Below are positions 49,470 to 64,000 of a DNA stretch of 64,000 nt, one piece after another. Below the pieces are notes generated by a model. The model had not been told where the DNA came from. It was given only the letters and a program-made list of their open reading frames with translations, and did not search any database. Within the stretch, counting starts at the first letter, position 1; each line of letters opens with the position of its first letter. The stretch is from an uncultured Oscillospiraceae bacterium (GTDB lineage Bacteria > Bacillota > Clostridia > Oscillospirales > Ruminococcaceae). Position numbers and translations under genes: made by a program. The stretch covers positions 32,258 to 96,257 of the forward strand of contig CASEAH010000026.1 in assembly GCA_949285935.1 (NCBI GenBank), read 5' to 3'.

Positions 49470-49748
49470 TCCATCAAACGCTGAGATCAAGAGAGTAGTC
49501 TTTACGAAGCTGTCCAAGAGAGGCGCTGCCATGGGCTGGGAGCGGCGTTGTCGGCTGTGAGGATGAAGTTCACTTGGGAGCGGCGCTGCTGAAACCGGTT
49601 TTCCGGCGGTAGGCGACGACGGAATCGGCCCCGTTAAAAAGCCGGGAAAGTGCCTGTTCTTTTCAGGAACAGGAAGCTGGGTGGTACCGCGGAAGTGTCC
49701 ATGCGCCTTTCGCCCCTTTTGCCGGGGCGGAGGGCTTTTCTTTTTGTC
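49470..49748 (+). promoter_or_regulatory. T-box leader of pheST, phenylalanine specifier
   Basis: A T-box riboswitch that senses uncharged tRNA-Phe. The AGAGTAG loop strand near 49490 pairs across to TGAAGTTCA, with specifier TTC at 49569-49571 followed by A; TCTTTAC/GTGAGGA form the stem above and CAAG/CTTG the stem below. The antiterminator T-box GGGTGGTACCGCGG is at 49678-49692, and the terminator CGCCCC..GGGGCG with TTTTCTTTTT lies at 49704-49746. Confidence 0.95.
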
Positions 49749-54148: not shown

Positions 54149-54506
54149 ACAGGCTGCTGATATCGCCATCTTTTCGCCATTGGGCTTCTTCCGGTAAATC
54201 ATACACCGCAGACCAAGCTGTTTCAGATCGTTCCGATTCCGCCGGTATCTGTTCTCCTGGTTTCAGACGGGGATGAAGTCGCTCCCGGCAACATTATACC
54301 AGCCTCCTGTGCCAAGCCTGCGAAATAAAATCCGGGTTTTTCCTTTTTTTCTCCCATATCGGTCAAATCGAAAGTATCATGCTGTTGACGGGCGGAGGCA
54401 GAATCTTCCGGCGTAAGGGGCTGAAAATTATTCTCCCTCCTTGTTCTGCCAAGACTGCTGCAAAATAAAAACGCAGCGTGATTGCGCATATATCTCTTAT
54501 GATGAC
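54149..54506. other. Gene-free stretch with a short imperfect repeat
   Basis: No ribosome-site-bearing frame. Two segments near 54305-54335 and 54445-54475 share TGCCAAG.CTGC..AAATAAAA, a possible small duplication. No promoter seen. Confidence 0.4.
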
Positions 54507-54557
54507 AAAACCCGGGATCTTTTGGGGGCTGAACCGCTCCGCAAAATCCCGGGTTTT
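54507..54557. terminator. Bidirectional terminator of the acyl-CoA synthetase gene
   Basis: AAAACCCGGGAT and ATCCCGGGTTTT form a 12-bp stem with A/T tracts on both sides, about 180 bases past the leftward gene. Confidence 0.82.
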
Positions 54558-54739
54558 ATTATATGATTTGGGAAGGACGATTTTTAGCACCCTCAAGCGT
54601 GATGCAAGCCCTTCTGTTCCCCACTGGCACCCCTGTCCCCATAATGTGGTCTGGGGGGCTGGGATCATGGTTCTGTGCAGCCGTTTAAAAGCATGAGGTT
54701 TGATTCAAGGAAATTCCGATGAAACCCCTCTGGGCTTTT

Positions 54740-56377
54740 TTACCGCAGCTTGTGTCGGATGATCTTCCCCGAGGTGGTCTTGGGCAGCTCTGCCACATAT
54801 GCCACCACCCTGGGATATTTGTAGGGAGCAGTCATCCTCTTAACATAATTCTGGATTTCCTTGGTCAGTTCCTCACTGGGGGCATATCCCGCTTCCAGAA
54901 CGATAGTAGCCTTAACCACCTGCCCACGAATAGGATCGGGCGCACCAGTAATGGCACATTCATGCACCGCAGGATGGGTCATCAGAACAGATTCGATCTC
55001 AAAAGGACCGATTCGATAAGCCGAGCATTTGATCATGTCGTCGTTGCGGCCTACAAACCAGTAGTATCCGTCTTCGTCCATCCAGGCGATATCCCCGGTA
55101 TGGTACACGTGGTTCTCATCATAGGCGGAAACCACTTTCCCGTCCTTCCAATAGCCCCGGATGAGACCTTCCGGAATATACCGGTCCAGATTCCGCACCA
55201 CCAGTTCTCCCTCTTCTCCGGCCCGGCAGACGTTGCCTTCCCCGTCTACCAGAGCGATGTCATACAGGGGAGACGGTTTCCCCATGGAACCGGGCTGCGG
55301 GGGAAACCATCCGAAGTTGGCCACCAGGACGCTGCTCTCCGACTGTCCGAAGCCTTCGTGGATCGTAAGCCCCGTAATGTCCCGGAACTCCCGGACGATT
55401 TCCGGAGACAGAGGTTCGCCCGCGGTGCAGCAGTGCTGGACCGAAGCAAATTCCGGACCAGTCAGGCCCTCCCGCATCATAAAGCGGTACATGGTGCCGG
55501 GAACACAAAGGGTGGTGGGTTTGTATTTGGCGATGGCGTCAATCAGGTGCCGCGGATTGAATTTATTGTCCATATCATAGCCCAACACGGCGCTGCCGCA
55601 GAGCCATTGCCCGTAAATGCACCCCCAGCCGAACTTGGCCCATCCGGAGTCGGTGACGGTCAAATGCAGACCGTTATCCCACACCTGCTGCCAGTAGCCG
55701 GCCGTGACGATATGCCCCAGAGGATAGGTAAAATCATGGAGGACCATTTTGGGCATACCGGTGGTTCCCGAGGTAAAATACATCAGCATCATGTCGTGGG
55801 CTCTGAGGGTATCATCCCGGATAAAATCCGGCCCGGCCTCCCGGATGCCCGCCGAATAATCCAGCCAGCCCTCACGGGGCTCTCCCGCCAATGCTGTTAC
55901 CAATTCCGGGCATTCTTCCCGGGCCATCTCCACCTGTTGGATGATCCAGGGGTCCTGGGCAGCGATGAGCATTTTTGCCCCGGCTGCCTGCACCCGGTAG
56001 CTGATATCATGGGCTGCCAGCTGATAAGAGGCCGGAATGAGAATGGCCCCCAACCGATGCAGGGCGACGGCGGTCACCCAGTATTCCCAGCGCCGTTTCA
56101 GCTGGAGCATCACCCGGTCGCCCTTTCCTATCCCCTGCGCTTTGAGCCAGGTGGCTGCCTGACGGGAAAGACGGGAGATCTCCGCAAAGGTGAAAGTCCG
56201 TTCCCCTCCATGATCGTCAAACCACACCAAAGCCCGACGCTGCGGGTCCTCTTCCGCCCAGGCGTCCACCACATGGACGGCAAAATTAAAATCCTCCGGA
56301 TACTGCACCCGGTAGTTTTCTTTAAAATCCTCATAGGATTCGTACTGTGTACGGCCAATGAATCTTTCCAGCAGCAT
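54740..56377 (-). CDS. AMP-forming acyl-CoA synthetase (medium/branched-chain type)
   Basis: A 545-residue adenylating enzyme joining a carboxylic acid to CoA via an acyl-AMP. It has the P-loop YFTSGTTGMPKM, the A5 motif EGFGQSES, YHTGDIAWMDEDGYYWFVGR (hinge), and the catalytic Lys in LPKTTSGKIIRHKLR. It looks like the ACSM/MACS subfamily, which includes a branched-chain-preferring methanogen enzyme. ATG 56377 has AAGGGGA six bases upstream; another ATG two codons earlier is possible. It is monocistronic behind a T-box, so it responds to an uncharged tRNA. Confidence 0.9.
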   Translation of the reverse strand: MLLERFIGRTQYESYEDFKENYRVQYPEDFNFAVHVVDAWAEEDPQRRALVWFDDHGGERTFTFAEISRLSRQAATWLKAQGIGKGDRVMLQLKRRWEYWVTAVALHRLGAILIPASYQLAAHDISYRVQAAGAKMLIAAQDPWIIQQVEMAREECPELVTALAGEPREGWLDYSAGIREAGPDFIRDDTLRAHDMMLMYFTSGTTGMPKMVLHDFTYPLGHIVTAGYWQQVWDNGLHLTVTDSGWAKFGWGCIYGQWLCGSAVLGYDMDNKFNPRHLIDAIAKYKPTTLCVPGTMYRFMMREGLTGPEFASVQHCCTAGEPLSPEIVREFRDITGLTIHEGFGQSESSVLVANFGWFPPQPGSMGKPSPLYDIALVDGEGNVCRAGEEGELVVRNLDRYIPEGLIRGYWKDGKVVSAYDENHVYHTGDIAWMDEDGYYWFVGRNDDMIKCSAYRIGPFEIESVLMTHPAVHECAITGAPDPIRGQVVKATIVLEAGYAPSEELTKEIQNYVKRMTAPYKYPRVVAYVAELPKTTSGKIIRHKLR

Positions 56378-56417
56378 AGCCATTCCCCTTCCGGTCTGGT
56401 GATGGGCCGGACGGCAG

Positions 56418-56700
56418 CAAAAAAGCACGTCCGGCTGCTTACGCAGCAGGACGTGCTCCAAGGCACGCGGTACCACCTGCATTCCCGCCAGAAAAGGCGG
56501 GCACTCTGCCGGGACGGAACAGGAGAACCCTCTTCGATCCCGCTCCCCCTGTAACGTAGGGGCATACGTCGGAGCCTACTGAGGGAGATCCCCGTTGGGT
56601 CCGCAACTCCAAGGCTACTTCTGCAAGCTTCCGACACGGCATTTCCACCATCCAGCCGCTCTCTATGCTCCTGAACGCTTGCCTACTACTCCTTTTCACA
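56418..56700 (-). promoter_or_regulatory. T-box leader of the acyl-CoA synthetase gene, probable valine specifier
   Basis: Read leftward: AGTAGTAG loop strand (about 56690-56683), stem GCAAGC/GCTTGC, opposite loop AGAAGTAG, lower stem AAGG/CCTT. Aligned with the Phe leader at 49470, the triplet before the final purine of the loop is GTA (56618-56616), a valine codon. The T-box GCAGGTGGTACCGCG is at 56480-56466; the terminator AGCACGTCC/GGACGTGCT with TTTTTT is at 56457-56418. The class is certain; the amino acid is inferred. Confidence 0.88.
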
Positions 56701-56737
56701 GTCTTTGCATTTGTGGATTCAATTTGATTTGATACAA

Positions 56738-56766
56738 ATCATATCATGTCTCAGGCCCCTTGTCAA
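56738..56766 (-). promoter_or_regulatory. Promoter of the valine-type T-box transcript
   Basis: TTGACA (56766-56761), 17 bases, TATGAT (56743-56738). Confidence 0.85.
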
Positions 56767-62401: not shown

Positions 62402-63400
62402 ATGGCCTACCAAAGCGAAGCAGAGCTTGAACTGCAATTCATAGGTCAACTGAACAGGCAGGGTTATAGCACCGTTTCCGTTCCCGATTATGATGCGTTA
62501 GTCGAGAACTTCAAGGTGCAATTTGAGGCGTTCAATGCGGATAAGCTGGACAAACCACTCACAGATAAAGAATGGGAACGCATACTCAATCTGATGCTGG
62601 GTAAATCCGTTTTCCAGAGTGCGAAAATTCTTAGAGACAAGTTTGTCTTGGAGCGCGAAGACGGGACTAAGGTGTATCTTTCATTTTTCGATAGCGATCA
62701 CACCAAAAACATTTTCCAAGTTACACACCAGACCACAGTTATCGGAAAATATGTCAATCGCTATGATGTGACTATCCTTGTCAACGGGCTTCCGTTGATC
62801 CAAGTGGAATTGAAACGGAGGGGCATTGACATCCGAGAAGCGGTCAATCAGGTGATGCGCTATAAAAAGCATTCCTACAACGGCCTGTACCATTTCATTC
62901 AGATATTCGTTGTTTCACACGGTGTAGACACGAAGTATTTTGCCAACTCGGATCGGGAGATGCTGCACAGTCTCGCGTTCTTTTGGACAGACTTCGACAA
63001 TGTGCGGCTTACCAATCTGAAGGATTTTTCGATTACCTTCCTCGCCCGTGATCACATTATTAAGATGCTGACACGGTATATGATCTTAAACGATACAGAT
63101 AAGCTGCTTATGGTCATGCGGCCTTATCAGGTGTACGCCGTTGAAGCCCTTGTCCGGCAAGCTACTCTGACCAATCGCAACGCCTATGTTTGGCATACAA
63201 CAGGAGCGGGAAAGACTCTGACTTCTTTCAAAACAGCGCAGATACTCGCAGCCAATCCCAACATCAAGAAGGTGATTTTCCTCGTTGACCGAAAGGACTT
63301 GGACTCTCAGACTACGGAAGAGTTTAATAAGTTTGAAAATGGCTCGGTGGATGCGACTGACCGCACCGATGTCCTTGTGAAGCAAATGCAGGATAAAGCG
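62402..63400 (+). pseudogene. hsdR: Type I restriction enzyme subunit HsdR, truncated by insertion
   Basis: The first about 333 residues of an HsdR subunit, normally near 1000. The N-terminal PD-(D/E)xK nuclease is intact (YDVTILVNGLPLIQVELKRRG), followed by SF2 helicase motif I HTTGAGKTLTS and motif Ia FLVDRKDLD. After VKQMQDKA the sequence stops resembling HsdR, and the frame drifts on to a stop at 63709 through GC-richer foreign DNA. The motor and C-terminal regions are missing, so it cannot work as a translocating enzyme. hsdM and hsdS are not in the window; the remainder may lie beyond the inserted element. Confidence 0.88.
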
Positions 63401-64000
63401 GTGGCATCACCGCCCCCACACCGGCCCGCGACGCGGACCGGAGAAACGGCTAAAACACGGGGTTTTACCGCAAAAGGTTTGAAATACGGATATGGCATCA
63501 TCAAAAGCCTTTTGCCATCACTTCCGACATCAACCCGGCGAAAAGTCCCGATGGAAAGCCATTTTTCGATAGCGACAAATGACATTCCAAACGAAAGAGG
63601 AGGTTGTTTACATGGAACAGAAAGTCCGATTCCAGATGCGCATTTCAGAGAAAACCGATCAGGCAGTCAAGGCAGCAATCCCCCTCGCCAACTGCCGCAG
63701 CCAGAATGAATTTGTAGAGAAGGCGCTTCTCCACTACTGCGCCTATCTGCAAAGTGGAGAGGTAGCGAATATCCTGTCCCCGATGTTAGTCTCCGCGTTC
63801 CGGGGAACGGTACAGGATTCGGAAAACCGTACCGCCCGCCTGCTCTTCAAGCTGGCGGTGGAGGTGGATATGATGATGCACCTCTTCGCCACCGCCATGG
63901 AGATTGATCCGGAACTTTTGGAAAAACTCCGGGCCCTCTGCGTCCGGGAGATCAAGAAAACCAACGGCAGCATCTCCCTGAAGGATGTGGTGGAATACCA
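63401..64000. mobile_element. End of a conjugative-type element inserted in hsdR (partial)
   Basis: The junction near 63396-63405 is where HsdR similarity ends and composition changes. An imperfect GC palindrome (CCGG.CCGC..GCGG.CCGG, 63422-63442) lies just inside, followed by a 170-base gene-free strip and then a gene type familiar from integrative conjugative elements of gut Firmicutes. The other end, integrase and target duplication are outside the window. Confidence 0.6.
63612..64000 (+). CDS. Ribbon-helix-helix-like protein of an integrative conjugative element (partial)
   Basis: Starts with ATG at 63612, eight bases after a perfect AGAGGAGG site, and is still open at the window end (129 residues seen). 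MEQKVRFQMRISEKTDQAVK with SQNEFVEKALLHYC has the short-strand-plus-two-helices look of ribbon-helix-helix DNA-binding proteins. I recall close relatives in Clostridia conjugative elements next to relaxase and coupling-protein genes. The precise role is unknown. Confidence 0.75.
   Translation, partial: MEQKVRFQMRISEKTDQAVKAAIPLANCRSQNEFVEKALLHYCAYLQSGEVANILSPMLVSAFRGTVQDSENRTARLLFKLAVEVDMMMHLFATAMEIDPELLEKLRALCVREIKKTNGSISLKDVVEY

Follow-up and report, generated by a model that had tools for sequence, protein, structure and literature searches.

The closest described regulatory systems are the T-box leaders found on genes for aminoacyl-tRNA synthetases and for amino-acid synthesis (RF00230; TBDB, PMC7778990). 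The leader reported here shares their structural marks and their transcriptional terminator design, but the gene that it controls encodes an acyl-CoA synthetase (ACS1). The closest described chemistry is the reductive carboxylation of branched-chain acids in rumen ruminococci and methanogens (Allison and others). Passages of PMC7356843 give isovalerate as precursor of leucine, 2-methylbutyrate of isoleucine and isobutyrate of valine, the second being also found in an excerpt of PMC2812497, and a 1962 title among the references of PMC7356843 indicates that ruminococci were known to use branched short-chain acids as early as the 1960s. The chemistry proposed here is the same; what differs is that particular genes and a tRNA-dependent control are put forward for each acid, while the excerpts of the literature searched did not tell which genes serve which branched acid. 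As to the enzymes, the nearest counterparts are Macs and the MbcS of Staphylococcus aureus; ACS1 has its best structure match in 3etc and keeps a Trp motif of the latter, yet does not reach the cut-off of the MbcS family model (NF047394).

The case is therefore one of a known switch on known chemistry, the combination of which was not found in print in the literature searched. A T-box, an acyl-CoA synthetase and a specifier were not found together in any paper of that literature, supplementary regulon tables lying outside the search, and no term that starts with 'acyl-CoA' occurs in the main text of PMC7778990, PMC2494555 or PMC3766115, although supplementary regulon tables may list such genes. 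In the excerpts at hand, T-box, acyl-CoA and isovalerate come together in a paper on Geobacter leuA, and T-box riboswitch and CoA ligase in one on Staphylococcus epidermidis.

Here, I propose that branched-chain amino acids are made by reductive carboxylation under tRNA control, by means of a valine T-box on ACS1 and of sister switches for isoleucine and leucine. Given the gene and leader sequences, the probability of this reading is about 0.85. The arrangement suggests that branched short-chain acids taken up from outside serve to build valine, isoleucine and leucine.

The T-box leader of ACS1 and its specifier codon

The window, a stretch of 64,000 nucleotides from an uncultured Oscillospiraceae bacterium, belongs to a genome (G000) of 2.44 Mb in 110 contigs, 89% complete. 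By family matches, ACS1 (54740..56377, minus strand; 545 residues, with a further in-frame ATG at 56383) is an AMP-forming acyl-CoA synthetase of the Macs/MbcS/ACSM type. The initial annotation had described it as a lone gene preceded by a complete T-box. Lone it is as far as seen, the next downstream open reading frame of at least 90 residues on the same strand encoding 101 residues (54363-54668). The T-box is confirmed as well: from stem I to the antiterminator (56444..56708, minus strand) the leader scores 113.2 bits with the RF00230 covariance model (gathering score 93, E 2.9e-24), which places it within the family. The T-box bulge UGGU (56472..56475, minus strand), complementary to the ACCA end of tRNA-Val, is followed 3' of the antiterminator by an intrinsic terminator (56418..56456, ends approximate, minus strand), a stable hairpin with a U run that is predicted to form as the alternative to the antiterminator; the region 56415-56480 has a folding energy of -36.6 kcal/mol (z -4.3). 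A simple terminator scan did not return this hairpin, in my opinion owing to a stem mismatch. Upstream lies a sigma-70-type promoter, TTGACA-N17-TATGAT (56738..56766, minus strand), with 11 of 12 consensus letters and a TG before the second hexamer; it is a consensus match only, the scan having found 2 promoter-like sites against 1.2 in shuffled sequences. As folding stem I from a single sequence gave no information (z 0.49), an alignment-based pair count was taken instead. Across nine orthologous leaders, compensatory (double) changes occur at 9 of 14 pairs, and pairing is kept in 92.7% of 123 cells, against 29-45% in slid controls.

That GUA, a valine codon, stands in the reading position had been proposed by comparison with a Phe leader of the same window, which is indeed present upstream of pheS (49474..49720, plus strand; 89.9 bits, just under gathering), carries UUC and serves as a reading control. 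The covariance alignment suggested beforehand as a check (made with Infernal) sets GUA (56616..56618, minus strand), and no other codon, on the codon positions. The specifier loop reads ...GCAGAA-GUA-G-CC..., with one gap relative to the consensus GAA-a-uuc-a-CC, and an ungapped 8-nt loop likewise yields GUA. Throughout, the same reading rule was used, namely the codon, usually a purine, five bases, then GAG. Applied to the six aminoacyl-tRNA synthetase leaders found in G000, it gives a codon that matches the gene in all six (tyrS UAC, valS GUA, pheS UUC, alaS GCC, thrS ACC and cysS UGC; gene names by eye), the GAG anchor being absent from the cysS leader. Other T-boxes of the genome carry AUG on a metN-like gene and UGG on an ABC transporter gene (names by eye). 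Many leaders were read by eye, by a reader to whom the expected amino acid was known; among those that the regular expression failed on or misread are L157, L160, L163, L166-L168, L171, L172, L179, L201 and L205, as well as L137, L140, L295 and L298, read from the printed sequence.

The tRNA complement agrees with this reading. The tRNA-Val(UAC) of G000 ends in A-CCA, and so a single tRNA fits both the UGGU bulge and GUA. For comparison, the bulge is UGGC in the serS leader of G140 (L238, whose specifier is outside the set read) and UGGA in thrS leaders; the cysS row prints CGGC and breaks the pattern, being either a wrong motif match or a true exception. In a tree of 46 leaders, the nine ACS1 leaders given and four valS leaders form one clade (100/97, in a bootstrap not quite settled), so that the ACS1 and valS switches probably have a common origin. 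Two frame-shifted specifiers, AGU (serine; disfavoured by the UGGU bulge) and UAG, were considered and rejected, as the bulge, the leader tree and the orthologues all point to valine.

Sister switches and gene clusters

What the initial annotation missed are the parallel isoleucine and leucine T-box/synthetase units of the same genome, and the multi-unit clusters found elsewhere. Rfam reports 11 T-boxes in G000, 4 of them above gathering; six lie on aminoacyl-tRNA synthetase genes and three on acyl-CoA synthetase genes, with GUA on ACS1, AUC on ACS2 and CUC on ACS3. On contig 102 the AUC (Ile) T-box is followed by an XRE/cupin gene and then by ACS2, and on contig 82 the CUC (Leu) T-box stands ahead of ACS3. 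A tRNA-Ile(GAU) was not seen among the tRNA hits scanned in G000, perhaps owing to an assembly gap. The same trio occurs in three further genomes (G060, G140 and G029; of their 41 T-box matches, 30 were available as loci and examined), GUA being on ACS1, AUC on ACS2 and CUC or CUG on ACS3.

The codons hold within each synthetase group. Among the best 30 ACS1 loci, 10 have a T-box (next to the synthetase gene in 8 and separated from it by an XRE/cupin gene in 2), and together with a named Angelakisella locus (L067) all 11 read valine (9 GUA, 2 GUC). The T-boxes of ACS3, present in 17 of its best 30 loci (L169, whose motif lacks AGAGA, not being counted), are all for leucine, 15 with CUC, 1 with CUG and 1 with CUU or UUA. 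ACS2 has a T-box in 5 of its best 30 loci and in 9 of 80 named loci; 12 of these 14 are readable and all carry AUC, the other two (L141, L146) being cut by contig ends. The specifier changes seen inside each group are synonymous. Rfam supports every locus submitted to it, i.e. 10 of 10 for ACS1 (8 over gathering), 15 of 15 for ACS3 (9 over) and 10 of 10 for ACS2 (3 over; L141 at only 40 bits), a set from which L167, L142, L145, L146 and L298 were left out. Within 1.5 kb, no T-box was found in 20 of the 30 best ACS1 loci, 13 of 30 for ACS3 and 25 of 30 for ACS2, so the T-box is one control of these genes and not the only one; upstream of many ACS1 relatives, an XRE/cupin gene stands in its place. 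The XRE/cupin regulator that lies between T-box and ACS2 at many loci (L042, 6155-6766, is an example) is sometimes fused to the synthetase, and might act as an additional sensor of the acid or of its CoA ester.

Two further elements were also recorded. A Leu T-box (CUC, by eye) precedes a gene for a transporter-like membrane protein (L216, G060:C4:7734-7987), and near ACS2 a TPP riboswitch (59.6 bits; L004, 559-668, minus strand) precedes a transporter-like gene on the other strand (gene by eye).

A case in point for the coupling of these units concerns eight stretches from eight genomes of the order, two of them near kin, which were chosen for tandem synthetase matches. All eight hold an AUC T-box/XRE-cupin/synthetase unit, a GUA T-box/XRE-cupin/synthetase unit, a gene for a CobQ/ParA-like ATPase, a leuA-like gene and an ACS3 with a TIM barrel. 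The genes of a branched-chain 2-oxoacid:ferredoxin oxidoreductase (VorABC) are present in seven, the stretch of L297 ending before them; a CUC T-box is present in all seven clusters whose stretch reaches it, and ilvE in five of eight, none being found within the stretches of L292 and L293. Rfam confirms all 20 T-boxes of seven of the stretches, and those of L298 rest on motifs. The aminotransferase of L295 passes the ilvE_II model, and its leuA-like protein is below the leuA cut-off. The order Ile-synthetase, Val-synthetase, ATPase, Vor is found in two named records, L130 (Candidatus Ruminococcus equi) and L140, and Vor genes adjoin the synthetase in 10 of 80 named loci, three of which are in methanogens. 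Of all the evidence, this gene neighbourhood speaks most strongly for the putative pathway. In a synthetase tree (midpoint root), the valine-controlled enzymes from the clusters branch within the isoleucine-controlled ACS2 clade, far from ACS1, which suggests at least two origins of valine control for such a synthetase. A xylose-isomerase-like TIM barrel, fused to ACS3 or near it, was seen in L165, L170 and L291-L298, as well as in L043 (5487-6305).

Pathway genes and the proposed mechanism

The initial annotation had linked the valine switch to isobutyrate, which would be turned into isobutyryl-CoA and then, by reductive carboxylation, into valine; it had also predicted ketoisovalerate:ferredoxin oxidoreductase genes and missing ilv genes in the genome. 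The gene content of G000 agrees with both predictions. Contig 82 carries VorABC as three genes, about 11 kb from ACS3. The alpha subunit reaches 543 bits with the VorB model (NF005507; 3-methyl-2-oxobutanoate/2-ketoisovalerate), over the cut-off of 399, and the adjoining beta and gamma subunits are above Pfam and below NCBIfam cut-offs; by the alpha score and the adjacent genes, the complex is placed with branched-chain Vor. IlvE scores 415 bits with the ilvE_II model (cut-off 250). Neither ilvC nor ilvD has a match in this 89% complete genome, and hence the IlvC plus IlvD pair that would mark de novo synthesis of branched-chain amino acids was not found there.

The same trend is seen among other genomes, which were of my choice and are mutually related: ilvC is over its cut-off in 0 of 8 genomes with a T-box directly on ACS1 against 12 of 22 others (Fisher 0.010), and ilvD in 0 of 8 against 13 of 22 (Fisher 0.004). 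Weak ilvC matches below the cut-off of 226 bits occur in G064 and G133 (22 and 19 bits), the latter also having a partial ilvD below cut-off. G114, whose valine T-box lies behind an XRE/cupin gene, holds both genes; if it and G067 are counted as T-box genomes, the figures become 1 of 10 against 11 of 20 for ilvC (Fisher 0.024) and 1 of 10 against 12 of 20 for ilvD (Fisher 0.017). That T-box control of a synthetase is always paired with loss of ilvC fails for leucine: ilvC is kept in 7 of 16 Leu T-box genomes, against 10 of 13 ACS3 genomes without that T-box (Fisher 0.13), so the leucine switch is not tied to the loss of de novo synthesis. In the Ile T-box genomes ilvC is found in 0 of 2. As G000 has a leuA over cut-off, and a citramalate-synthase-like gene as well, leucine could arise there from isovalerate, from 2-ketoisovalerate, or from both.

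T-boxes, codons, enzyme families, VorABC with IlvE, the missing ilvC and ilvD matches and the clusters of other genomes are read directly from the DNA; from them I infer which acid each synthetase takes, that Vor works reductively and that the leaders do switch, as follows. At valine shortage, uncharged tRNA-Val(UAC) would pair with the GUA of stem I and the UGGU of the antiterminator; with this tRNA bound, the terminator would not form and ACS1 would be made. ACS1 would then convert isobutyrate and CoA into isobutyryl-CoA, from which the ferredoxin-dependent VorABC, using CO2 and reduced ferredoxin, would yield 2-ketoisovalerate, and IlvE would transaminate the latter to valine. Along the same line, the AUC/ACS2 switch would lead from 2-methylbutyrate to isoleucine and the CUC/ACS3 switch from isovalerate to leucine.

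Aromatic acids may be handled in a similar way. In G029, a Phe T-box (UUC, by eye) stands directly before iorA, which encodes an aryl-2-oxoacid oxidoreductase (L218, G029:C6:26153-26403), likely a phenylalanine-controlled reductive carboxylation of phenylacetyl-CoA. In G140, a T-box with UAC (Tyr, by eye) that groups with tyrS leaders (99/91) precedes a gene for another AMP-binding protein (L234, G140:C5:412428-412664), and in G000 an IorAB operon lies between two paaK-like genes on contig 57 (names by eye). It is likely, judging from these gene arrangements, that many bacteria of this order possess a complete and separately regulated alternative to the ilv route, in which each amino acid has its own T-box/synthetase unit and VorABC and IlvE are shared, the Phe T-box/iorA and Tyr T-box/AMP-binding protein units extending it to aromatic acids.

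The same genes bear on the possibility that isobutyryl-CoA from ACS1 is mainly a primer for branched-chain membrane lipids, in which case valine control would just report a shortage of the primer's source. Such lipid priming is exactly the use made of MbcS in S. aureus, according to passages of PMC10026030, and MbcS is related to ACS1 (family match below cut-off). Nevertheless, three amino-acid-specific switches, the Phe T-box on iorA and the clusters with Vor (and with ilvE in five of eight) point to amino acids, as do ilvC and ilvD, without match in G000, so that lipid priming as the main role is improbable.

Enzyme family and candidate acids

Amino-acid synthesis from branched acids being the preferred reading, the acid used by each synthetase is the next point. 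ACS1 matches the AMP-binding domain of Pfam (PF00501, 224 bits) and its C-terminal domain (80 bits), both over cut-off. Its best NCBIfam family is the MbcS equivalog model (NF047394), with 406 bits against a cut-off of 850; ACS1 is thus a relative of MbcS and not a member. Its best match of known structure is 3etc (residues 2-545, E 1.9e-191), which I take to be Macs of Methanosarcina acetivorans, and the Trp of the AKYWQ motif of 3etc is retained in ACS1 as AGYWQ. This residue probably corresponds to Trp259 of PMC10455477, a numbering deduced by comparison. ACS2, 51% identical to ACS1, likewise has 3etc as best solved structure and MbcS as best NCBIfam model, below cut-off; ACS3, 27% identical to ACS1, is on another branch, of PRK12583 type and just below the cut-off. 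In the excerpts available, Macs prefers 2-methylbutyrate (PMC10455477), and MbcS uses 2-methylbutyrate and isobutyrate, the former being bound best and isovalerate being a poor substrate (PMC10026030). The valine- and isoleucine-labelled enzymes would accordingly sit on a branch for alpha-branched acids and the leucine-labelled ones on another, which fits this biochemistry.

The preference of Macs for 2-methylbutyrate and the fact that MbcS binds that acid best (same passages of PMC10455477 and PMC10026030) would also suit a valine-specific T-box on an enzyme whose main substrate is a different acid (propionate, butyrate or 2-methylbutyrate), the product feeding another valine route or another amino acid. 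I regard this as slightly less probable still than lipid priming, as ACS1 and ACS2, at 51% identity, keep different codons over many genera, which fits different acids. Weakest, and very unlikely, is an oxidative fermentation of amino acids in which Vor would turn keto acids into acyl-CoA and the synthetase, reversed, would give free acid and ATP: Vor enzymes do run from keto acid to acyl-CoA in peptide fermenters, but T-boxes turn genes on when charged tRNA is short, and AMP-forming synthetases normally run towards acyl-CoA.

If amino-acid synthesis from branched acids is indeed the role of these units, the T-box codons act as labels, by which isobutyrate, 2-methylbutyrate and isovalerate can each be matched, ahead of any assay, with one of three enzyme groups, and they would predict which bacteria depend on external branched acids. 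Acyl-CoA synthetases also join the range of T-box-controlled genes.

Elsewhere in the window, an open reading frame at 62402-63709 resembles the start of a type I restriction HsdR subunit and, by eye, seems to leave the frame near its end.
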